Assembly: GCF_003287275.1 (NCBI RefSeq)
Contig: NZ_QEVW01000010.1
Location: 1-64,000 of the forward strand
Direction: 5' to 3'
Source: Paenibacillus taichungensis
GTDB taxonomy: Bacteria > Bacillota > Bacilli > Paenibacillales > Paenibacillaceae
DNA: 64,000 nucleotides
Shown here: positions 40,294-55,162 of the stretch, one piece after another
Layout of the letters: each line of letters begins with the position of its first letter
Numbering within the stretch: position 1 is the stretch's first letter
Notes under the pieces: generated by a model
Told to the model about the DNA's origin: nothing
Database searches by the model: none
What the model saw: only the letters and a program-made list of their open reading frames with translations
Translations under genes and position numbers: made by a program

Positions 40294-41799
40294 ATGGAAT
40301 CACCTTACCTGCTGGAGATGGACGGAATATCCAAAGCATTTCCAGGTGTGCAGGCACTAAGTCAGGTCACATTGAAGGTAAAGCCGGGTACAGTTCATGC
40401 GCTGATGGGAGAGAACGGAGCGGGCAAATCCACGCTGATGAAATGTCTATTCGGTATGTATCGCCCGGATGAGGGGACGATTCGGATTGAAGGCAATGAG
40501 GTGGACATTCCGAGTTCGAAAGCGGCGCTTCAGCATGGCATATCGATGATTCATCAGGAGCTGAACCCGGTGCCGCATCGGCCAGTGATGGAGAACATCT
40601 GGCTGGGACGGTTTCCCATGAGGGGGTTGTTGGTGGATGAGAAGCGAATGTATGCCGATACACTGGCCCTGTTCAATGATCTGAATCTGGACATTGATCC
40701 GAAGGCTCAGGCGGGGACTTTATCCGTTTCCAAAATACAGTCGATGGAAATCGCCAAAGCGGTCTCTTTTCAATCCAAAGTTATTGTGATGGATGAGCCA
40801 ACGTCCTCGCTCACGGGCAAGGAAGTGGACCAGCTCTTCGCCATTATTAATCAGCTTCGCAATCGCGGGGTTTCTATTATCTACATCTCGCACAAGATGG
40901 AGGAAATTCTGACAATCTCGGATGAGGTCACGATTATGCGGGATGGTTTTGTGGTCGGTACCTGGGATGCTGCTGATTTAACGACCGATCTGATCATTAC
41001 CCGCATGGTTGGACGTGATCTGGATGAACGGTTCCCGGAACGGACGAACGTACCTGGAGAAGTGATTTTGAAGGCTGTAGGCTTAACGTCCAGCCAACCG
41101 AATTCGTTCCGTGATGTGACGTTTGAATTGAGGAAAGGCGAAGTGCTTGGCATCGGCGGCCTTGTTGGGGCACAGCGGACGGAATTAATCGAGTCATTGT
41201 TCGGCTTGCGCGGACTTGCATCAGGGACAATTTCGATTCATGGGCGCAAGGTAAAGATCAAGTCACCTGCCGCAGCAAAGCGTCATAACATTGCCTTGCT
41301 GACCGAAGAACGAAGAGTCACGGGAATTTTTCCGGTGCTGTCTGTATATGAAAATACGATTATTGCGAGTCTCGGACGTTACCAAAATCGGATTGGTCTG
41401 TTAGATGAGAAGAAAGGCCGAGATGAGGCACGCGAGCAAACGCAGAAGTTCAGAACTAAAACGCCTTCAGTTAACACGCTGATTCGCAACCTTTCCGGTG
41501 GTAATCAACAGAAGGTACTTCTGGCGAGATGGTTGTTAACTGACCCGGAAATTCTACTGCTGGATGAACCAACACGTGGGATTGATGTAGGCGCCAAATT
41601 TGAAATCTACACCATTATTACGGAACTGGCCCGCCAGGGCAAAAGCATTATTATGATCAGCTCGGAGATGCCCGAACTGTTGGGCATGTCGGATCGAATT
41701 ATGGTCATGAGCGAAGGACGGCTCACCGGAATTGTGGACGGAGCCGAGGCAACAGAGCAGGATATCATGAGGCTGGCCGCACAGCAGCGGATGGCTTAG
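40294..41799 (+). CDS. mglA: Sugar ABC transporter ATPase with two ATP-binding domains
   Basis: 501 residues. The first ABC domain has Walker A GENGAGKST and Walker B VIVMDEPTSSL. The second begins near 255, with a degenerate Walker A (GLVGAQRTELIESLF, as usual for the second domain of this family), LSGGNQQK and ILLLDEPTRGIDVG. This is the standard layout of MglA/RbsA importers. AAGGGGAGGATG precedes the ATG. It powers import through MglC. Confidence 0.93.
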   Translation: MESPYLLEMDGISKAFPGVQALSQVTLKVKPGTVHALMGENGAGKSTLMKCLFGMYRPDEGTIRIEGNEVDIPSSKAALQHGISMIHQELNPVPHRPVMENIWLGRFPMRGLLVDEKRMYADTLALFNDLNLDIDPKAQAGTLSVSKIQSMEIAKAVSFQSKVIVMDEPTSSLTGKEVDQLFAIINQLRNRGVSIIYISHKMEEILTISDEVTIMRDGFVVGTWDAADLTTDLIITRMVGRDLDERFPERTNVPGEVILKAVGLTSSQPNSFRDVTFELRKGEVLGIGGLVGAQRTELIESLFGLRGLASGTISIHGRKVKIKSPAAAKRHNIALLTEERRVTGIFPVLSVYENTIIASLGRYQNRIGLLDEKKGRDEAREQTQKFRTKTPSVNTLIRNLSGGNQQKVLLARWLLTDPEILLLDEPTRGIDVGAKFEIYTIITELARQGKSIIMISSEMPELLGMSDRIMVMSEGRLTGIVDGAEATEQDIMRLAAQQRMA

Positions 41800-41813
41800 T
41801 CAGGAGGGAACAT

Positions 41814-42833
41814 ATGAATACACAGGTTATCAATCAGGTGAAGCAGTATGTGGCGCAGCGCGCGATCTTTATTGTGCTGATCCTGCTCGTCATCGGCATT
41901 GCCATTGCCGATCCGCATTTTCTTGCTTTCTCTACACTTCGGGATATATTACAACAGTCCTCCACACGGGCCATCATTGCGCTGGGGGCGGCGTTTATCC
42001 TCGTAACGGGCGGGGTCGATTTGTCGGCAGGGCGGGTTGTTGGGCTAACGGCTGTTGTATCGGCATCCATGCTGCAGATCGACGAATATGCCAATCGGTT
42101 CTTTCCTGATCTGCCACATTTATGGGTGTGGGCGCCCATGATCGTCGGGATCATTGCAGGCTTGGCAGTGGGTCTCGTCAACGGCATCATTGTAGCCAAA
42201 TTACATGTTCCACCCTTTATCGCGACACTGGGCACGATGGTTGCGGTATATGGTCTGAACTCGATTTATTTTGATACGGAGCCCAATCAGTCACAACCCA
42301 TTGGAGGACTGAGATCCGATTTTACCGTTATTGGTTCCGGTTACATTGATCTTGGCGGTGGTTATTCCATTCCGTATATCGTATTAATTGCTGTAGCGGT
42401 TGCGCTGATCTGCTGGGTCGTCTTCAACAAGACCCGCCTCGGGAAGAACATGTATGCCATCGGTGGCAACATTCAGGCTGCGCATGTGTCCGGTATTCAT
42501 GTAGCCCGCAACCTGATTGCATTGTATGCCATTGCAGGTGCATTGTATGGACTGGGCGGTGTGCTGGAAGCCGCACGTACGGGCGGGGCAACGAACAATT
42601 ACGGCAATATGTATGAGTTGGATGCGATTGCGGCCTGTGTCGTGGGGGGCGTCTCCACTGCGGGTGGTATTGGTACGGTGCCCGGAGTCATGGCAGGGGT
42701 GCTGATCTTTGGAGTCATCAACTATGGTCTGACCTTTATCGGTGTAAGTCCTTACTGGCAGCTGATTATTAAAGGGTTGATTATTGTGGCTGCGGTGGCA
42801 TTTGATATCCGCAAGTATATGGCGAAAAAATAA
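41814..42833 (+). CDS. mglC: Galactose/methylgalactoside ABC permease
   Basis: 339 residues with about nine hydrophobic helices and the BPD_transp_2 signature GAAFILVTGGVDLSAGRVVGL near the N-terminus, GGNIQAAHVSGI and LDAIAACVVGGVS later. It follows mglA after a 14-bp gap containing CAGGAGG. It forms the homodimeric channel. The operon ends with a strong terminator 15 bp downstream. Confidence 0.93.
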   Translation: MNTQVINQVKQYVAQRAIFIVLILLVIGIAIADPHFLAFSTLRDILQQSSTRAIIALGAAFILVTGGVDLSAGRVVGLTAVVSASMLQIDEYANRFFPDLPHLWVWAPMIVGIIAGLAVGLVNGIIVAKLHVPPFIATLGTMVAVYGLNSIYFDTEPNQSQPIGGLRSDFTVIGSGYIDLGGGYSIPYIVLIAVAVALICWVVFNKTRLGKNMYAIGGNIQAAHVSGIHVARNLIALYAIAGALYGLGGVLEAARTGGATNNYGNMYELDAIAACVVGGVSTAGGIGTVPGVMAGVLIFGVINYGLTFIGVSPYWQLIIKGLIIVAAVAFDIRKYMAKK

Positions 42834-42847
42834 AAATGTAGTAATGA

Positions 42848-42900
42848 AGCAAAAAGCCAGCTTCCTGAAGTGACAGGGGAAGCTGGCTTTTTGCTCTTTT
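42848..42900. terminator. Strong terminator after mglC
   Basis: An 18-bp perfect stem (AGCAAAAAGCCAGCTTCC, 42848-42865, with 42878-42895) and a T run. It also borders the convergent membrane-protein gene. Confidence 0.92.
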
Positions 42901-43234
42901 AATGAAATGTAACCCATATTATACCGTAAAGTGGAAAGATCATAACGCTAAAGATCAGCATGAAACCACCGACCTTGTAGGCTACTTTTGTACCAAAGTG
43001 AGAATGATATTTGCGTGCGATCAAAACGGAAGATAACCAAAAGATTATAGCTACCATAAAGGGAATGTGAAATCCTTGATGACCATTGCTATAGATAGGC
43101 AAGTTCAGTAGATTAAACAAATAGTGGCTGATTTGTACCTTTTCTGCTCCCCAACCATAATTAAAGGCAAACCCCATAGCGAGCACAAGCAGAGAAAGTG
43201 TCCCGATGCCCAAAGGTTTTCTTTGTTTTATCAT
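42899..43234 (-). CDS. Unknown small membrane protein
   Basis: 111 residues with three membrane helices (about 10-27, 55-72, 85-107) and a basic N-terminus. GGAGGGATAAG lies before the ATG. No family was recognised. It is monocistronic, ending against the mglC terminator. Its promoter region is shared with the divergent kinase gene to the right. Confidence 0.6.
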   Translation of the reverse strand: MIKQRKPLGIGTLSLLVLAMGFAFNYGWGAEKVQISHYLFNLLNLPIYSNGHQGFHIPFMVAIIFWLSSVLIARKYHSHFGTKVAYKVGGFMLIFSVMIFPLYGIIWVTFH

Positions 43235-43382
43235 GCTTATCCCTCCATAACCAAGGTGATATCCTAAATAAATCCATTAATGTATTTTAACACAGTGTTG
43301 ATCAATGTGATAGGAGGATTATTTCGTAATATGCACTTTCCTATAAACCGTTTGTCCTATTTTAATTATAAATTTATACATT

Positions 43383-43488
43383 CATGTGAATTTGACAAGC
43401 CTCCAATAATCGACAACATCAGCTAATCATAACCGATATAATACATGTAAATAGGATCTGGATATGAGAATTATGTCAAAGGGGGCGA
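43383..43488 (+). repeat. Copy 1 of a ~106-bp duplicated promoter/leader, before the histidine kinase
   Basis: From CATGTGAATTTGACAAGCC to GTCAAAGGGGGCGA this stretch matches 45224-45330 with about seven substitutions and one single-base gap (about 93% identity). It carries TATAAT at 43437-43442, two TYGACA direct repeats 18 bp apart (43393 and 43410) and the GGGGG ribosome site of the kinase gene. No good -35 hexamer stands at 17 bp from TATAAT, so an activator or alternative sigma factor may be needed. Confidence 0.9.
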
Positions 43489-43494
43489 GGCTGT

Positions 43495-45090
43495 TTGCTG
43501 AGTTACACGATGAAAATGGTTATTTTCCCGCTAGGATGTCTGCTTGTTATACTGTCCTCTTATTTTTTAGGGCTTACTTCCCACCTTGTGTTAATGATAT
43601 GTGCTGGTGCGTTATTTGTGGCAAGTGTGTATAAGGAAAAACAGTATCCGGTATTGCGTAACTTTCATTGGATCTTTCTTGGCATATTCCATTATTTCAG
43701 TGAACTTAACTGGTGCAATATGTTGTATTACCTGCTCATCATGTCGATGATTCAGGATAAACAGCGGATTACGCAGACGTTACCCATTTCAATGTTGATT
43801 GTATTTGAATATACCGTGATTCGGCTATCGTATGTGACGATAGATACATATAGTTTGCTAGTGTCGATATTTGACATGTTAACTGCAATTGTCATTATTT
43901 TTTTGTATCATACCTTGCTTAACAGCGAAGCAGAGAAGCGCAGACTTCGGGAGGAAAATCATTTTCTAACCCTTCATGATCCGCTCACTGGATTGCTGAA
44001 TTACGAGGGATATATGAACATACTGAAGAAGACAGTGGACGAGCAACCATCTTTTTTGCTGATTATCATGAACATTCAGAATTTCAATGGATTTGATAAA
44101 GAGGTTGAAGACAACTGGAGTCATGTAATCAAAGCGACAGGCGAGAGTGTTTTGAAACAGTTTGCAGATGCATATGGCATATCTCGGTATGCGGGGGATC
44201 GTTATGCTGTCGTTTTGCCTGAAATACAAAATATCGAAGAACGCATGGCGTTACTGCTGTCCGGGGAGTTAAGGGGCTTACAAATAAACTACAGCATATC
44301 CCTATATCCTGGCATGTCCGAGACGTTGCAACACTTTATCGCGGTGTCGGAGGAGAGGATGTTGCAGCAGCAGCGCAGCAAATGGTTAAAAAACGGAGAG
44401 GAGGTCTTCCGTTCCGAAAGACTTCGGGCTGTTGGTGAGTTAGCCGCGGGCATGGCTCATGAAATTCGCAACCCCCTGACTGCCATTCGTGGTTTCCTGC
44501 AGCTTTCTCGGGGACAGGCCTTCAATATCGCTCCATGGTATGAGGTCATTATGGGTGAGATCACACGGGTAACAGAGCTGACGGCTGAGTTTTTACAGTT
44601 CTCCAAGCCGCATGCCAATCACATGAAACCTGAACGAGTAGAGCTGTGTCTTGAACGGGTCATGTCGTTAACCGGATCGGATGCAGCATCACGGGGGCAT
44701 CGAATTACACTGGAGATGACAGGTGAGTCGGTCGTGGTCAATATGGATCGGGACAAGATCGTACAGGTTCTGATTAATCTGATTCGTAATGCTTTTGAAG
44801 CGATGGAAGATCCGGGTGAAGTGCATATTGATTTGCATCATGATGGTGAGAAGGCGCTTATCTCGATTACCGATACGGGCAGCGGTATCCCTGAGAACTC
44901 TCTGGTGACGATCTTTAATCCATTTTATACGACAAAGGAAGAAGGTACAGGACTTGGACTGGCACTCTGTCAGAAAATCGCTCAGGATCATCATGGCAAA
45001 ATCACCGTTCATAGTGAAATGGGGATTGGCTCTACATTTACCCTTCATTTACCAACAAATAAAAACGCTGAACTGCTCCCCGTCAAGTAG
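43495..45090 (+). CDS. Membrane histidine kinase with degenerate GGDEF domain
   Basis: 531 residues starting at TTG after the GGGGGCGAGG site. Five or six membrane helices (1-140), a short coiled segment, then a GGDEF-like domain (about 152-300). It keeps LHDPLTGLLNYEGY but has AGDRY (233-237) in place of GGDEF, so diguanylate cyclase activity is not expected. HisKA with His322 (GMAHEIRNPLTAIRGFLQL) and HATPase_c (NLIRNAFEAM, DTGSGIP, GTGLGLALC) follow. The kinase half resembles sporulation kinases (KinB/KinD type). No response regulator gene is adjacent. It shares a duplicated promoter with the lpxCDA operon downstream and ends at its own terminator. Confidence 0.9.
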   Translation: MLSYTMKMVIFPLGCLLVILSSYFLGLTSHLVLMICAGALFVASVYKEKQYPVLRNFHWIFLGIFHYFSELNWCNMLYYLLIMSMIQDKQRITQTLPISMLIVFEYTVIRLSYVTIDTYSLLVSIFDMLTAIVIIFLYHTLLNSEAEKRRLREENHFLTLHDPLTGLLNYEGYMNILKKTVDEQPSFLLIIMNIQNFNGFDKEVEDNWSHVIKATGESVLKQFADAYGISRYAGDRYAVVLPEIQNIEERMALLLSGELRGLQINYSISLYPGMSETLQHFIAVSEERMLQQQRSKWLKNGEEVFRSERLRAVGELAAGMAHEIRNPLTAIRGFLQLSRGQAFNIAPWYEVIMGEITRVTELTAEFLQFSKPHANHMKPERVELCLERVMSLTGSDAASRGHRITLEMTGESVVVNMDRDKIVQVLINLIRNAFEAMEDPGEVHIDLHHDGEKALISITDTGSGIPENSLVTIFNPFYTTKEEGTGLGLALCQKIAQDHHGKITVHSEMGIGSTFTLHLPTNKNAELLPVK

Positions 45091-45120: not shown

Positions 45121-45158
45121 AGAAACCTTAGCTCGGATGACATGCTAAGGTTTCTTGT
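45121..45158 (+). terminator. Terminator of the histidine kinase gene
   Basis: AGAAACCTTAGC (45121-45132) pairs perfectly with GCTAAGGTTTCT (45144-45155) and runs into TT. It isolates the kinase transcript from the second copy of the leader. Confidence 0.88.
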
Positions 45159-45223
45159 TATGCTGATCTTTGGCGAAGCTTTTTCAGCGTACTTGCGGAT
45201 CATCTTATTCTCAGCGACATATC

Positions 45224-45330
45224 CATGTGAATTTGACGAGCCTCCAAATATCGACAACATCAGCTAATCGTAATCGATATAATACATGTAAATAGGATCC
45301 GAATATGAGAATTATGTCAAAGGGGGGCGA
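45224..45330 (+). repeat. Copy 2 of the ~106-bp duplicated promoter/leader, before lpxC
   Basis: The same sequence as 43383-43488, 1841 bp downstream, in the same orientation and position relative to the start codon. TATAAT lies at 45278-45283 and the ribosome site AAAGGGGGG at 45319-45327. The conservation includes untranslated leader and Shine-Dalgarno, not coding sequence. Confidence 0.9.
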
Positions 45331-45334
45331 TGCT

Positions 45335-46165
45335 ATGTACCAAAAAACGATTCGTAATAGTTTTACATTAGACGGCATTGCTGTACATAGTGGGAATTTG
45401 TCAGCGATAACTCTGCATTCTGCACAACCAAACACAGGTATTGTTTTTAGAAGAGTGGATGTAGATCCATATGAAATTATTGAAGCTAGAATCGGTAATG
45501 TATCCAATACGGAACGTTGCACACAGCTTAAAAACATGCATGGATACACCGTATCTATGGTTGAACATACATTGTCTGCAATTCGAGGGATGGGCATTGA
45601 TAACGTGATTATTGATGTTAATGGTGAAGAATTACCTATTTTTGATGGCAGCTCTACCAATATTGCAACCAAGATTTCAGAAGTTGGCCATCTGCAGCAA
45701 GAAGTCAAAATAAAGTACCTTCATTTACAACAAAAAATTAGAGTTGAGCACGGTAATTCTTTTCTTGAAGCTCATCCCTCTTCTATGATCTCCTATTGCG
45801 TCTGTTTTAAAAATGAACATAAAATTGCATACCTCTCGGATCAAACAATCAATTTTAATTTTATAGATAACAATTACTTAACTGAAATTGCGCCAGCTAG
45901 GACATTTTGTTTTGAAGAAGAAATAATGTACTTAAAAAGCAAAGGTTTAATTCAAGGAGCTTCTTTAGACCATGGAATAGTTATAGGTGAAAAGGAAATT
46001 TATCCCGATTTACGTTTTTCTGATGAATTGTCTCGTCACAAGCTGCTGGATCTTATTGGCGATTTAGCTCTGAATCCTCCTTTTCATGCAAAAATCATAG
46101 GATCGGGAACGTCTCATTATTTGAACACTCTTTTTGCTCAAGAATTATTAAATAATCTAATTTAA
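45335..46165 (+). CDS. lpxC: UDP-3-O-acyl-N-acetylglucosamine deacetylase
   Basis: 276 residues from the ATG eight bases after AAAGGGGGG. It removes the acetyl group from UDP-3-O-acyl-GlcNAc, the committed step of lipid A synthesis. Zinc and catalytic residues are all present: Glu77 and His78 (VEHTLSAIRGMGIDN), Thr190 (ARTF), His235-x3-Asp239 (RHKLLDLIGDL) and His261 (SGTSHYLN). They match E78, H79, T191, H238, D242 and H265 of the E. coli enzyme. It lacks the C-terminal tail of the 305-residue E. coli protein. Codon use is AT-rich compared with its neighbours: bases 45841-45900 have 16 G/C of 60, while 44701-44760 in the kinase have 30. First gene of a three-gene lpx operon. Confidence 0.93.
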   Translation: MYQKTIRNSFTLDGIAVHSGNLSAITLHSAQPNTGIVFRRVDVDPYEIIEARIGNVSNTERCTQLKNMHGYTVSMVEHTLSAIRGMGIDNVIIDVNGEELPIFDGSSTNIATKISEVGHLQQEVKIKYLHLQQKIRVEHGNSFLEAHPSSMISYCVCFKNEHKIAYLSDQTINFNFIDNNYLTEIAPARTFCFEEEIMYLKSKGLIQGASLDHGIVIGEKEIYPDLRFSDELSRHKLLDLIGDLALNPPFHAKIIGSGTSHYLNTLFAQELLNNLI

Positions 46166-46185
46166 ATACAAAAGGAGACCATATT

Positions 46186-47211
46186 ATGCCATGTAATTTG
46201 AATGAAATCTCTGAACAGTTAAATGGGATTCTAATAGGTGATGGCAATGTCGTTATAACAGGCGTAGGTTCAATTAATGCTGCTAAAGAGGGAGATATTG
46301 CTTTTGTTACGGATAAAAATCTAAATAAATTAGATCAATGTAAGGCTTCAGCTTTCATTGTGCCAGAAACGACAATAATAGAATTTAAAGTACCTGTTAT
46401 TAAGGTGAAAAATCCCCGACTCGATTTTATTCGCCTAATTGAAATGTTTAGCGAGAAAACCAAAAGCAGTGGTGTATTATCATCAGAAGCAATTGATCCT
46501 TCGGTAACGTTAGGCTGTAATGTGCAGATCGACGAATTTGCGGTAATCAAAGAAGATGTATCTATTGGGGATCATACTATTATTTCCGCGCATTCATTTA
46601 TTGGTAAGAATGTGACCATTGGAACGAATTGCTTGATCCACCCTAATGTCACTGTTCTACATGATACTTTCATCGGAGATAATGCCATCATTCACTCAGG
46701 CGCAGTGATTGGCGCTGACGGCTTTGGTTTTGAATGGGATGGTCAAAAACAAGTTAAGATCCCACATATCGGAAATGTCGTTATTTTTGATGATGTTGAG
46801 ATTGGAGCAAATACCACTATTGATCGCGGAACGATTGATTCAACAACCATTGGTAAAGGAACTAAAATGGACAACCTTATTCAAATTGGCCATAATGTTC
46901 AAATTGGTGAGCACTGCATTATCGCAGGCACAAGTGCAATTGGGGGCTCATCAAAAATTGGTAATCGCGTCATAATGGCTGGTGGAAGTGCGGTAATTAA
47001 TAATATCACCATTGGAGACGGCTGCGTTGTTTTAGCTAAAACCATGGTTACTAAAAACATGCCCGAGAACTCAATGGTGTCAGGGTATACAGCTCGCTCA
47101 CATAAGAGACAACTACGAGAATCCGCTGCACTTTCCAGACTCCCCCAAACGATAAAAAAACTAAATAAAAAACTTGATGAACTTAGCAAAACAAAGGAAG
47201 GTGCTAAGTGA
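46186..47211 (+). CDS. lpxD: UDP-3-O-acylglucosamine N-acyltransferase
   Basis: 341 residues, the same length as E. coli LpxD. The uridine-binding N-terminal domain (about 1-100: GVGSINAAKEGDIAFV, NPRLDF) is followed by a left-handed beta-helix of hexapeptide repeats (about 102-300) and a C-terminal helix. The catalytic base His236 (IQIGHNVQIG) corresponds to E. coli H239, and ADGFGF matches the family motif. It transfers an acyl chain from acyl-carrier protein to the glucosamine 2-amino group. AAGGAGACC precedes the ATG. AT-rich like lpxC. It overlaps lpxA by four bases (GTGA). Confidence 0.93.
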   Translation: MPCNLNEISEQLNGILIGDGNVVITGVGSINAAKEGDIAFVTDKNLNKLDQCKASAFIVPETTIIEFKVPVIKVKNPRLDFIRLIEMFSEKTKSSGVLSSEAIDPSVTLGCNVQIDEFAVIKEDVSIGDHTIISAHSFIGKNVTIGTNCLIHPNVTVLHDTFIGDNAIIHSGAVIGADGFGFEWDGQKQVKIPHIGNVVIFDDVEIGANTTIDRGTIDSTTIGKGTKMDNLIQIGHNVQIGEHCIIAGTSAIGGSSKIGNRVIMAGGSAVINNITIGDGCVVLAKTMVTKNMPENSMVSGYTARSHKRQLRESAALSRLPQTIKKLNKKLDELSKTKEGAK

Positions 47212-47984
47212 TACATCAGTCAGCCATTATTCATCCTACAGCAGTAATTGGGGACAATGTCGAAGTCGGACCTTTCAGTATCATTGAAGAAAATTCAAAA
47301 ATAGGTAGCGGTTGTAGGATTGGAAGTCACGTTATCATAGGGGCTAACACGGTATTGGGGGAGAATAACTATATTTCACATGGTGCCATTATCGGCTCAG
47401 ACCCACAAGATAAAAGTTACCAAGGCGAAGAATCGTATCTCATTATTGGAGATAATAATACCGTGAGAGAGTATGTCACTATATGTAAAGGCACATCAAA
47501 AGGAGATTGTTTCACGAGAGTAGGAAATAACAACTTTATTATGAATTATGCTCATATCGCACATGATGTATTGATGGGAGACCATAACGTCATCGTCAAT
47601 AATGTGCAAATTGGCGGACATGTTATTGTTGAAGACTATATCACATTTGGTTGTGGTTCTGGTGTACACCAATCATGTAACATTGGAAGGTTTGCAATGA
47701 TTGGAGCGGGAAGTAAAGTTTCACAAGATATCGTTCCATATTCTTTAGCAGATGGTCCGCGTTCGTACATACATGGTATTAATATCATTGGTCTAAGAAG
47801 AAATGGATTCTCAAATGAAGAGATAAGCACGATAAAAAAGATTAATACCATTTTATTTCGCCAAAAGCGAACGCTCGATCAATCTATTGAAGAAATAAAC
47901 AACTTGCCTCCTTCTGAATTTAAAGAACACACATTGAATTTTCTAAATAAATCTACACGCGGAATTGTACGAATGAAGCGATAA
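47208..47984 (+). CDS. lpxA: Acyl-ACP--UDP-N-acetylglucosamine O-acyltransferase
   Basis: 258 residues (E. coli 262), starting at GTG inside the lpxD stop. A left-handed beta-helix (about 5-190) and a C-terminal helical domain with the family endings IIGLRRNGFSNEEI and STRGIVRMKR. The catalytic His119 with His116 (NYAHIAHD) corresponds to E. coli H125 and H122. It 3-O-acylates UDP-GlcNAc, the first lipid A step. The ruler residues that set acyl length cannot be assigned safely. With LpxC and LpxD the expected product is UDP-2,3-diacylglucosamine; no LpxB or LpxH/I follows. A terminator ends the operon. Confidence 0.93.
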   Translation: MIHQSAIIHPTAVIGDNVEVGPFSIIEENSKIGSGCRIGSHVIIGANTVLGENNYISHGAIIGSDPQDKSYQGEESYLIIGDNNTVREYVTICKGTSKGDCFTRVGNNNFIMNYAHIAHDVLMGDHNVIVNNVQIGGHVIVEDYITFGCGSGVHQSCNIGRFAMIGAGSKVSQDIVPYSLADGPRSYIHGINIIGLRRNGFSNEEISTIKKINTILFRQKRTLDQSIEEINNLPPSEFKEHTLNFLNKSTRGIVRMKR

Positions 47985-47993
47985 AATGGAAAT

Positions 47994-48035
47994 GCCGCAA
48001 AGGTCCGGAATAAAACGGAACTTATGCGGCGTTTT
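47994..48035 (+). terminator. Terminator of the lpxCDA operon
   Basis: GCCGCA (47994-47999) pairs with TGCGGC (48025-48030), with inner TCCG/CGGA pairing, then GTTTT. Confidence 0.8.
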
Positions 48036-48061
48036 CGTCTTGTCTTTAGGGGCAAGGGGCG

Positions 48062-52308: not shown

Positions 52309-52328
52309 TCAGAATGGAGTCTTTCGAA

Positions 52329-53258
52329 ATGACACATACAGGTAATTCTGATCCAAATTCATTAGATCATCAGAATCACGTGAATATAAGTGAACAACAG
52401 TTTCTTGAAACCTATGACCCAGGCGATTTCGAACGTCCCTCCGTCACGGTGGATATGTTGGTATTTACCATACGAAGTGAAACGCAGGAGAACTATCGCA
52501 AACTTGCGGAACCTGAGCTCCAGTTGCTGCTGATCCGGCGTGGCGGCCATCCCTATATGGGGCAGTGGGCTCTTCCGGGCGGGTTTGTCTCCATGCAGGA
52601 ATCGCTGGAAGATGCGGCTAGGCGGGAACTATTTACGGAAACGGGACTGGATGATATCTATTTGGAGCAGCTGTATACCTGGGGAGATGTGCATCGTGAT
52701 CCGCGTACGCGTGTAATCAGCTGTTCCTACATGGCGCTGGTCGACAGCAGCGAACTGCAACTTCAGGCTGGCGATGATGCCAGCGAAGCAGACTGGTTCC
52801 GAATGGAGCAGCGGCTTCTGGAGGAGAAACGCCATATTCATGAGCGTGGACGCGTGACGGAGCGCAGGGTGCAGCTGATTTTGACCAATGGAACAGAGGA
52901 ATTGTCGGCGGTCATTGAGACGAAAGAAACGTTGGAAGGCAGAGTACGCAGCAGCCATATTACCATGAACGAAGTTCAAGGAATTGCTTTTGATCATGCG
53001 AAGATCATTTACTACGCGCTGGAACGTCTGCGGGCAAAGGTGGAGTATACGGATATCGCTTTCAATCTGATGCCGGAGACGTTCACTCTGACCGCTCTTC
53101 AGAAAGTATACGAGACCATCAGTGGCAAAAAACTGCTGGCTGCCGCCTTCCGGCGCAAAATCGCCGATTGGGTCATCGAAACGGGGGAGTATACAGGGAA
53201 TGCCGGACATCGCCCATCCCGTTTATATAGATTGAATCCGGAAAGATTGGCCCCATAA
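52329..53258 (+). CDS. Nudix-domain regulator of the NrtR type with degenerate Nudix box
   Basis: 309 residues from the second ATG, which is eight bases after GGAG; the upstream ATG at 52314 has no ribosome site. The Nudix domain (about 30-170) has the box GFVSMQESLEDAARRELFTETG, in which the first of the paired metal-binding Glu residues is Thr, so hydrolysis may be weak or lost. The C-terminal winged helix (about 225-305: FTLTALQKVYETISGKKLL ... RPSRLYRLN) is that of NrtR regulators, which sense ADP-ribose or NAD-related compounds. It heads a four-gene ADP-ribose cluster and is likely its local regulator. Confidence 0.85.
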   Translation: MTHTGNSDPNSLDHQNHVNISEQQFLETYDPGDFERPSVTVDMLVFTIRSETQENYRKLAEPELQLLLIRRGGHPYMGQWALPGGFVSMQESLEDAARRELFTETGLDDIYLEQLYTWGDVHRDPRTRVISCSYMALVDSSELQLQAGDDASEADWFRMEQRLLEEKRHIHERGRVTERRVQLILTNGTEELSAVIETKETLEGRVRSSHITMNEVQGIAFDHAKIIYYALERLRAKVEYTDIAFNLMPETFTLTALQKVYETISGKKLLAAAFRRKIADWVIETGEYTGNAGHRPSRLYRLNPERLAP

Positions 53259-53276
53259 AGTTAGGAGGGAATATCA

Positions 53277-53774
53277 ATGGAGAAGTTTACATTTTTCTGG
53301 CGCACAGCGTCTCCGTTCTCACAGTGGCACCCGGCGGATTTTACCGTGAATGGTGTTCAATACACCAGTGCGGAGCAGTATATGATGCACCAGAAAGCTT
53401 TGCTGTTCGGCGATCAGATTAGTGCAGATAAGATCCTGAAAGCAAGCTCCGCTTCCGTACAAAAAAAGCTGGGCAGACAGGTCGCAGGGTTCGACCAGAC
53501 TGTATGGGAAGCGGAGTGCAAACGTATTGTCTATGAAGGTAACGAAGCCAAATTCACCCAAAACGAGCAACTGATGACCTCGCTGCTCGCTACCCGAGGA
53601 ACGACCCTTGTGGAGGCAAGCCCGGATGATCGCATCTGGGGGGTTGGACTGGCGGAGGAAGACCCGCGCATTCGTAATAGAAGAACGTGGCGGGGAACGA
53701 ACTGGCTGGGAGAGATTCTCACCCGTCTTAGAGAAAATATAGGAAGTGATGAAGATGAACAATCAACAACATAG
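53277..53774 (+). CDS. NADAR-family protein (YbiA-like)
   Basis: 165 residues covering one NADAR domain. FWRTASPFSQWHPADFTVNG is at the N-terminus, TSAEQYMMHQKALLFGD follows, and WRGTNWLGEILTRLRE is near the C-terminus. NADAR proteins act on ADP-ribosyl or riboflavin-intermediate N-glycosidic bonds. Members from DarT1 systems remove ADP-ribose from guanine in DNA, while plant and E. coli relatives act in riboflavin metabolism. The neighbours all concern ADP-ribose, so the first role is favoured here. AGGAGGG precedes ATG. The next gene begins inside its last codons. Confidence 0.9.
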   Translation: MEKFTFFWRTASPFSQWHPADFTVNGVQYTSAEQYMMHQKALLFGDQISADKILKASSASVQKKLGRQVAGFDQTVWEAECKRIVYEGNEAKFTQNEQLMTSLLATRGTTLVEASPDDRIWGVGLAEEDPRIRNRRTWRGTNWLGEILTRLRENIGSDEDEQSTT

Positions 53775-54693
53775 GAACAATATTCAGAACAACAATCATA
53801 GTAAAACAACTGGCATTAATAGCACGAATCAACGTTCCAAACGATCCCAGATCGCCCATCAGACACTGGCTATTCTGGAAGAAGGAGAATACGTGAACGG
53901 ATATGATCGCAGGGTTCAGATCGGTACAGATTTACAGCGAGCGATCCAAGATTCGGTCTTATATCGTCCCACGGAACTTATCGCTCTTCGAGAAAAGCGA
54001 AGTAAAGAAATGGTCCAGCTGCAACCTTCCGTCGAAGCTTCAGCCGTTCGCATCGAGGTTACGGGCGAGACCACACTCGCAGCCGCTTCACGTCTTTCTG
54101 TGGATGAAGGAAGGGAAGATGTCATTTGCCTGAACTTTGCATCAGCGAAAAATCCCGGCGGCGGCTTCCTGGGTGGCAGTCAGGCACAGGAGGAGAGCTT
54201 GGCCCGGGCTACGGGACTGTACCCATGTATCGCCCAAATGAGCGAAATGTATGACTACAACCGCAAGCAGCGATCTTGTATGTACTCGGATTACATGATC
54301 TATTCGCATGCTGTTCCGGTGATCCGTGATGACGAGGATCGGCTGCTCGACCAATATGATCTGTCGGCATTTATTACAGCGCCTGCTGTAAATGCGGGAG
54401 TGGTGAGAGAGCGGGGAAATGCCGATGATCAGCAGATTGAGTCTGTCATGAAAGGGCGCATTCGCTATATTTTGGACTTGGCTTTGCTGCATGGACATCG
54501 AGCCATTGTGCTGGGCGCATATGGCTGCGGAGTATTCAGGAATGATCCGGCGAACGTAGCGAAGTATTTCCATGATGTGTTGGTGGAAGAGAACTTTAGA
54601 CATTCCTTTGAACGAATCGTATTTGCCGTATTCGACCGGACAGCAGGACGGAAAACGTTCAAAGCATTTGAGAATCGTTTGGCGGGAGAGTGA
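53755..54693 (+). CDS. TIGR02452 family protein (microbial PARG-like macrodomain)
   Basis: 312 residues from the ATG about eight bases after AGGAAG; GTG at 53746 and ATG at 53749 are alternatives. It overlaps the NADAR gene by about 20 bases. The N-terminus (1-25) is Asn/Gln-rich. The TIGR02452 domain has the macro-type PARG signature GGGFLGGSQAQEE (NFASAKNPGGG before it) and ends with VLGAYGCGVFRNDP. These enzymes hydrolyse poly- or mono-ADP-ribose links. The coupling to NADAR suggests that both act on ADP-ribosylated targets. Confidence 0.9.
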   Translation: MNNQQHRNNIQNNNHSKTTGINSTNQRSKRSQIAHQTLAILEEGEYVNGYDRRVQIGTDLQRAIQDSVLYRPTELIALREKRSKEMVQLQPSVEASAVRIEVTGETTLAAASRLSVDEGREDVICLNFASAKNPGGGFLGGSQAQEESLARATGLYPCIAQMSEMYDYNRKQRSCMYSDYMIYSHAVPVIRDDEDRLLDQYDLSAFITAPAVNAGVVRERGNADDQQIESVMKGRIRYILDLALLHGHRAIVLGAYGCGVFRNDPANVAKYFHDVLVEENFRHSFERIVFAVFDRTAGRKTFKAFENRLAGE

Positions 54694-54739
54694 ATTGGAG
54701 AAGTTTGAAAAGTAAAACGTTGTAAGGGAGAGAACGGAT

Positions 54740-55162
54740 ATGGAGTTTCGTGAGATACAGCAGGATCTATTTGCTATGGAAGATTATTACACGCTTGCAC
54801 ACTGCATTTCCGCGGATGCGCGGATGGGTGCAGGAATTGCTGTGCAGTTTCGCCAGCGATTTGGCTTGGAGGTTCTCCAGGAGCAGGCGCAGCAGGAGCC
54901 GCTTGAGATCGGACAATGTTATCCGGTAGGGCGTACCCTGAATTTGGTCACCAAGGCCAAATTTTCGAACAAACCGACTTATCAGTCGTTTACCCGAGCC
55001 GTGGAATCCATGCGTGACATATGCGTTAGAGATGGGCTCAACAAACTGGCGATGCCGCAGATTGGTTGCGGGCTGGATAGGTTGAAATGGGATAAGGTGA
55101 GGGGCATTATTCAGGATGCTTTTGCCGAAACGGATGTTGAGATCGTCGTTTGTACCTTGTGA
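54740..55162 (+). CDS. TARG1/ALC1-like macrodomain protein
   Basis: 140 residues, a stand-alone macrodomain. It has HCISADARMGAGIAVQFRQRFG, a Lys-containing KFSNKPTYQSF loop and the second motif MPQIGCGLDRLKWDKV, whose Asp follows GCGL. In TARG1 the Lys and Asp are catalytic for removing ADP-ribose from glutamate, and DarG antitoxins of the same group remove it from thymidine in DNA. AAGGGAGAG precedes the ATG. It is the last gene of the cluster; a bidirectional terminator follows. Confidence 0.88.
   Translation: MEFREIQQDLFAMEDYYTLAHCISADARMGAGIAVQFRQRFGLEVLQEQAQQEPLEIGQCYPVGRTLNLVTKAKFSNKPTYQSFTRAVESMRDICVRDGLNKLAMPQIGCGLDRLKWDKVRGIIQDAFAETDVEIVVCTL

Follow-up and report, generated by a model that had tools for sequence, protein, structure and literature searches.

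A probable, horizontally spreading lpxC-lpxD-lpxA cassette in Paenibacillus, predicted to make UDP-2,3-diacylglucosamine in a single-membrane host

The window analysed here is a stretch of 64,000 nucleotides of Paenibacillus taichungensis (NCBI RefSeq assembly GCF_003287275.1, contig NZ_QEVW01000010.1, positions 1 to 64,000 of the forward strand), in which the genes lpxC, lpxD and lpxA stand side by side at positions 45335-47984. Their families belong to the opening steps of lipid A synthesis. With a probability of roughly 0.6, this trio is a self-contained, horizontally spreading cassette of three enzymes that would make UDP-2,3-diacylglucosamine for a step provided by the host. The evidence comes from the identity of the three enzymes, from the later enzymes not found in the same genomes, and from the settings, divergence and selection of the operon across the family Paenibacillaceae.

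Identity of the three enzymes

Consecutive genes for LpxC, LpxD and LpxA had been proposed by a sequence-only reading of the window, made without database searches, and they are confirmed as three open reading frames (ORFs) on the same strand (Table 1), with a gap of 20 nucleotides between lpxC and lpxD and an overlap of 4 nucleotides between lpxD and lpxA. Enzyme identity was judged by the curated NCBIfam equivalog cut-offs together with Pfam, and all three products exceed the equivalog cut-offs. LpxC scores 222 bits with TIGR00325 (cut-off 187) and 272 bits with PF03331 (cut-off 27), LpxD scores 323 bits with TIGR01853 (cut-off 242.5) and has the PF04613 and Hexapep domains, and LpxA scores 301 bits with TIGR01852 (cut-off 231) and has the C-terminal domain PF13720. 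Alignments with solved LpxC, LpxD and LpxA span most of each protein. The longest ORF of lpxC begins at 45305, while 45335 is the start common to most of its relatives.

The catalytic residues named by the same reading are all exactly where it placed them: E77, H78, H235, D239 and H261 of LpxC, H236 of LpxD, and H116 and H119 of LpxA. They are conserved in all full-length copies (15 LpxC, 16 LpxD and 17 LpxA) of an alignment that left out the three copies of a second genus. In LpxC, two histidines and the aspartate presumably bind zinc, and the glutamate and the further histidine are presumably catalytic. LpxA would transfer an R-3-hydroxyacyl chain from acyl carrier protein (ACP) to the 3-OH of UDP-N-acetylglucosamine (UDP-GlcNAc), LpxC would remove the N-acetyl group from the acylated UDP-GlcNAc, and LpxD would attach a further hydroxyacyl chain. 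The product, in a host without an outer membrane, would be UDP-2,3-diacylglucosamine. We infer the steps up to this product from family membership and residues.

Later steps of lipid A synthesis

The search for a complete pathway covered LpxH, LpxI, LpxB, LpxK and WaaA, with LpxG left out, in up to 24 genomes, 20 with lpx genes and 4 lpx-less relatives as controls. LpxH and WaaA have no match in any of the 24 genomes and LpxB has none over cut-off, and LpxI and LpxK have no match in 21 genomes (17 with lpx genes and the 4 controls). Weak partial LpxB matches below the cut-off, which are presumably MurG, occur in 6 of the 24 genomes, two of them lpx-less, and the window's own genome has no LpxB match. 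Omp85/BamA is found in none of the 24 genomes, LptD and LptA not having been searched for. As far as the tested families go, the predicted lipid A pathway ends at UDP-2,3-diacylglucosamine. The sequence-only reading had predicted this end product, had assumed a single-membrane host and had noticed none of the later genes near the trio; the genome-wide searches support it on each count.

It is very improbable that the host completes lipid A with non-homologous or strongly diverged later enzymes. The window's genome does have a weak match to the LpxL family over the Pfam cut-off, but such matches are present in only 4 of the 24 genomes and lie in an ACP/KAS III-type cluster that is shared by a genome with a broken lpxC (G058), so they do not track the lpx genes. 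The genomes searched also yielded no LpxB over cut-off and no LpxK, WaaA or Omp85. The LpxL-like protein was also set aside as a consumer of the product of the trio, given its occurrence in 4 of 24 genomes, including G058, and its separate cluster. In the window's genome this cluster (G000:C7:118500-137500, L163) encodes an ACP, a KAS III-like protein, a pyridoxal phosphate-type (PLP) decarboxylase and the LpxL-family acyltransferase, and by eye also a transporter and a phosphopantetheinyl transferase. Clusters of its type are present in G058, in G021 and, in diverged form, in G031.

Distribution and genomic settings

LpxC (PF03331) is matched in 17 of 75 Paenibacillus genomes and in 20 of 394 genomes of the family, and a class-wide draw found LpxC in 5 of 398 genomes, all in Paenibacillus and with the window's own genome counted. 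Named records that carry the trio in a nucleotide scan include P. xylanexedens, P. illinoisensis, P. xylanilyticus and P. taichungensis. A protein search with LpxC returned 22 matches, the query counted, of at least 48% identity (48-70%), and those named by organism are Paenibacillus, apart from one metagenome-assembled genome of Bacillota and one record named Neobacillus mesonae. The latter record (L019 / P0001) is probably misnamed, as the genome taken to correspond to it, G048, is placed in Paenibacillus.

The trio is intact in 18 of the 20 lpx-bearing genomes, across five settings, and all 18 intact trios have the order lpxC-lpxD-lpxA on one strand, with genes that overlap or lie at most 37 nucleotides apart. 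In the type A setting (13 genomes), which is that of the window, the trio is flanked by a histidine kinase on one side and an ABC transporter pair on the other. In the type B setting (4 genomes) it lies between a GH95 glycosidase and a rhamnogalacturonan lyase, neighbours that were assigned by Pfam in one of the four genomes and by clustering in the other three. Three genomes of the second genus carry the trio, each with its own distinct neighbours. No adjoining gene is common to different settings among the five, and a shared neighbour was rejected on this ground as the consumer of the product. Generic relatives occur farther off, namely ABC ATPases in the regions retrieved for types A and B, and histidine kinase genes are found near the trio in type A and in two stretches of the second genus (L038 and L040); the recurrence of these ABC ATPases and kinases is read as chance.

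Outside type A, 20 genes near the trio were scanned across the four settings and include no integrase, transposase or phage gene; in type A the scan covered some of the neighbours. Searches with LpxD gave no match of at least 60% identity in plasmids (50 records, none of the 20 listed being Paenibacillus) or in phages (12 records, none of those listed being Paenibacillus). Among 72 non-Paenibacillus loci that were retrieved with LpxD, 29 of which have a detectable lpxC, none shows the order lpxC-lpxD-lpxA without fabZ.

An assembly chimera or contamination, a doubt raised with the sequence-only reading and one to which an AT-rich island could point, was rejected and is next to inconceivable, since the type A setting recurs in 13 genomes, five of which are single-contig assemblies.

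The trio could instead serve to tailor an acylated amino sugar that is secreted or specialised, such as a natural product or a surfactant, and not to make a membrane lipid, which we consider unlikely. Its patchy, mobile distribution resembles accessory metabolism, and generic ABC transporter genes occur in the regions retrieved for types A and B. The acyl chain may also differ: at residue 167 of LpxA, which faces the second G of the MVGG motif in a solved LpxA, type A copies have A and type B copies have V or L, and by work on the hydrocarbon ruler such variants may mean chains other than C14. However, a biosynthetic, export or glycosyltransferase gene stands directly beside the trio in at most one of the five settings.

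Insertion, base composition and probable transfer between species

All four lpx-less relatives examined, which are the genomes already serving as controls, have an empty site, in which the kinase is followed directly by a GCCGCA inverted repeat, recognised by eye, and then by the ABC pair. In lpx-bearing type A genomes the order is kinase, a new hairpin, a second kinase promoter and leader, lpxCDA, and the GCCGCA hairpin. No counterpart of the new hairpin (45121-45155 in the window) was seen by eye at the four empty sites.

The trio in the window has a GC content of 35-39%, against 44-51% in the flanking histidine kinase (HK), ABC1 and permease genes, and a third-position GC content of 26-31%, against 49-56%. 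Windows of 500 bases over 45250-47999 have 33-41% GC, and the downstream part and 41000-42700 are near 50%. The sequence-only reading had described the operon as AT-rich compared with its neighbours, which is correct for HK, ABC1 and permease but not for 42750-44250, a region with a gene for a 111-aa protein and the 5' half of the kinase that is equally AT-rich (35-40% GC). In type B copies the third-position GC content is 34-53%, near that of their surroundings.

Between two host clades (28 pairs), which the flanking genes separate with full support, the median synonymous difference is 0.207 (0.119-0.389) for lpxCDA and 0.646 (0.595-0.665) for the flanks (HK, ABC1 and permease, without one gene in each of G066 and G071), and the lpx value is the lower one in 28 of 28 pairs. 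Within the illinoisensis-side clade the values are 0.271 for lpx and 0.304 for the flanks, with lpx lower in 2 of 6 pairs, so the lpx genes, being about as diverged as the flanks, are not simply slow there. Within the other clade they are 0.174 and 0.320, with lpx lower in 21 of 21 pairs. This pattern fits an exchange of the operon between species, probably by recombination at one site. The lpxCDA tree does not unite the four illinoisensis-side sequences (their union appears in 0% of 200 bootstrap trees), but the approximately unbiased (AU) test does not reject this union (p 0.139). Because topology by itself does not reject common descent, the case for transfer is carried by the synonymous divergence. 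The transfer suspected from the window's sequence is supported by this difference (0.21 against 0.65 when rounded).

In a quick, midpoint-rooted LpxD tree from an uneven sample, the Paenibacillaceae form a clade of 19 rows (support 100) on a long stem beside Neomarinimicrobiota rows (supports 84 and 93). In the LpxC search, identity falls from 48-70% to 36-44% in the next matches (best 120 of 7,625; 7,999 candidates scored), and neither result singles out a donor of the operon. Vertical descent from a diderm ancestor, which would make the trio a vestige of an ancestral envelope of Bacillota, was rejected on distribution, empty site and divergence, and is extremely improbable. A diderm ancestry of Bacillota is argued in PMC5007114, and in the tree three LpxD rows of Bacillota fall in the same half. 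Against it, the 5 positive genomes of the class draw all belong to one genus and the operon has five settings; in addition, the site is empty in four relatives, type A copies are AT-rich, a single Paenibacillaceae clade sits on a long stem, and between host clades the lpx genes are less diverged than their flanks.

Selection and the duplicated putative promoter of the kinase

Among 11 intact type A genomes (55 pairs per gene), the median ratio of nonsynonymous to synonymous change (dN/dS) is 0.215 for lpxC, 0.135 for lpxD and 0.169 for lpxA, which indicates that the predicted lpx proteins are retained by purifying selection. Two of the 13 type A copies are broken by deletions: G058, which belongs to the window's own species, has a deletion of 148 nucleotides in lpxC with lpxD and lpxA intact, and G042 has lost most of lpxC and lpxD but retains lpxA.

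In the window's lineage, the trio is probably transcribed from a copy of the kinase promoter. The element before lpxC, which consists of TCGACA at 45251-45256, a spacer of 21 nucleotides and TATAAT at 45278-45283, is nearly invariant, and in 13 of 13 type A genomes the duplicate aligns with the promoter of the kinase over 61-181 nucleotides at 77-92% identity. The copy before the kinase is probably the older one, because lpx-less genomes carry the element there. A search for a 21-nucleotide element in the 24 genomes, with up to three mismatches, gave 40 matches, which were assigned to genes by tblastn or, when it gave no locus, by their position: 13 before lpxC, 17 before the kinase (13 in type A and 4 in lpx-less genomes) and 10 elsewhere. 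A reversed-pattern control gave 9 matches, close to the 10 elsewhere, and no further member of a wider regulon is claimed. In G021 and G066 the kinase-side promoter has the lpx-side form TATCGACA, which would fit a conversion by the lpx copy.

With a copied kinase promoter, the lpx genes are probably expressed when the kinase is expressed. Long spacers of 21-22 nucleotides occur in promoters that Spo0A activates, for example those of spoIIG and spoIIE. At the -35 position, 21 nucleotides before TATAAT, the sequence ATCGACA (45250-45256) has six of the seven letters of the Spo0A box TTCGACA, which is used in P. polymyxa (PMC10782996). Stationary phase or early sporulation would then be the likeliest time of expression. 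Spo0A control is offered as a hypothesis only, because finding a 7-mer with a single mismatch at some position of such a block is not unusual.

Several observations weigh against a selected cassette with its own promoter. The trait appears dispensable, since 2 of 13 type A copies are broken, one in the window's own species. The dN/dS values of the lpx genes are above those of the flanks (0.08, 0.05 and 0.01), and one pair shows as much as 0.49 for lpxC. Taken alone, a Spo0A-type box with one differing letter is weak evidence, and the type A promoter is not seen in the other settings. A simple sigma-70 scan, limited to spacers of 16-18 nucleotides, does not report the lpxCDA promoter and finds no excess of promoters (16 against 16.6 in shuffles), while a terminator scan reports none (2.9 in shuffles) and neither of the two hairpins.

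Foreign DNA without present use, hitchhiking and decaying, would account for the two broken copies and for a type A base composition that has not been ameliorated. We regard it as unlikely, and slightly more so than the tailoring route, as the median dN/dS of 0.14-0.22 (55 pairs per gene), the conservation of a dedicated upstream element and the intact frames in 18 of 20 genomes speak against it.

Possible use of the product

If the trio is a cassette that feeds a step of the host, there are two candidate uses of UDP-2,3-diacylglucosamine. A glycosyltransferase of the host may pass the diacylglucosamine unit to a lipid or envelope acceptor, or a phosphodiesterase outside the tested families may cleave the product to a lipid X-like glycolipid; one of the two is most likely, since homologues of LpxH, LpxI, LpxB, LpxK and WaaA were not found. 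A more specific proposal, which is speculative and for which we hold well under even odds, is a new class of glycolipid in Paenibacillaceae, with UDP-linked or transferred 2,3-diacylglucosamine or a lipid X-like molecule made at the onset of stationary phase or sporulation, by a starter pathway that has been freed from lipopolysaccharide (LPS), placed under a copied kinase promoter and passed between species as a selectable trait.

Lipid A precursors are usually thought to belong to outer membranes. A monoderm that keeps the three starter enzymes under selection with a captured promoter would point to a new lipid and to an acceptor enzyme, and it offers a natural way to ask whether UDP-diacylglucosamine has a use of its own. 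An LPS envelope cannot be concluded from the presence of lpxC, and some Gram-positive bacteria might be susceptible to LpxC inhibitors.

Relation to known systems

A 2024 survey (PMC11448272, section 3) reports lpxACD in P. crassostreae and a lone lpxA in Cohnella abietis, read as a single transfer from Terrabacteria, and includes one Paenibacillus among 3,855 Bacillota genomes. P. crassostreae is thus a precedent for a partial lpx operon in a Gram-positive Paenibacillus, and since it is in print in PMC11448272, the bare presence of lpx genes in the genus is not new. One LpxC recorded under the name P. crassostreae (P0005) shares 68% identity with the type B query and falls inside the same group of matches. 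Unlike that report, as far as its section 3 goes, the present analysis finds lpx genes in 20 of 394 genomes of the family, with five settings, transfer between species, a promoter duplication and broken copies. No other paper on an lpx trio in Paenibacillus was recognised among the literature matches listed; PMC11138523 mentions lpxC solely among its references. Within the literature searched, the breadth, the settings, the promoter duplication and the transfer between species are new; the duplication, the five settings, the interspecies transfer at one site and the broken copies also lie beyond the view of the sequence-only reading.

The first three steps of the Raetz lipid A pathway use the same LpxA, LpxC and LpxD families with the same catalytic residues, whereas here LpxH/LpxI, LpxB, LpxK and WaaA were not found and the order is lpxC-lpxD-lpxA without fabZ. 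Diderm Bacillota (Negativicutes and Halanaerobiales) also have lpx clusters, but theirs, as described in PMC5007114, have fabZ next to lpxC and go together with the synthesis and transport of LPS and with an outer membrane. Isolated lpxC genes of Desulfotomaculum acetoxidans and the Peptococcaceae DCMF resemble the trio as lpx genes in Bacillota without LPS; unlike it, they comprise LpxC alone and are read, in PMC11448272, as possible remnants of a second lpxC region.

Features of the window around the trio

Table 1. Positions of the lpx genes and of putative regulatory features in the 64,000-nucleotide window.
Feature	Position	Strand	Size	Basis or remarks
Putative kinase promoter and leader, source of the duplicate	43380-43492	+		TATAAT at 43437-43442
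Histidine kinase	43495-45090	+		Degenerate GGDEF, HisKA, HATPase; N-terminal half hydrophobic by eye; shares promoter element
Hairpin between kinase stop and duplicated promoter	45121-45155	+		Possible terminator
Putative lpxCDA promoter and leader	45221-45334	+		Duplicate of kinase promoter
lpxC, UDP-3-O-acyl-GlcNAc deacetylase	45335-46165	+	276 aa	Family profile, residues
lpxD, UDP-3-O-acyl-glucosamine N-acyltransferase	46186-47211	+	341 aa	Family profile, residues
lpxA, acyl-ACP:UDP-GlcNAc O-acyltransferase	47208-47984	+	258 aa	GTG start; family profile, residues
GCCGCA hairpin 3' of lpxA	47986-48038	+		Possible terminator

The 111-aa protein encoded at 42899-43234 is hydrophobic by eye and has no Pfam or NCBIfam match; its gene is conserved next to the kinase in all 13 type A genomes and occurs in the 4 lpx-less controls too. 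Farther downstream, at 52314-55162, a row of genes related to nicotinamide adenine dinucleotide (NAD) and ADP-ribose encodes an NrtR-type NUDIX regulator, a NADAR protein, a microbial PARG and a macro domain protein, and this row recurs in part at other type A loci.

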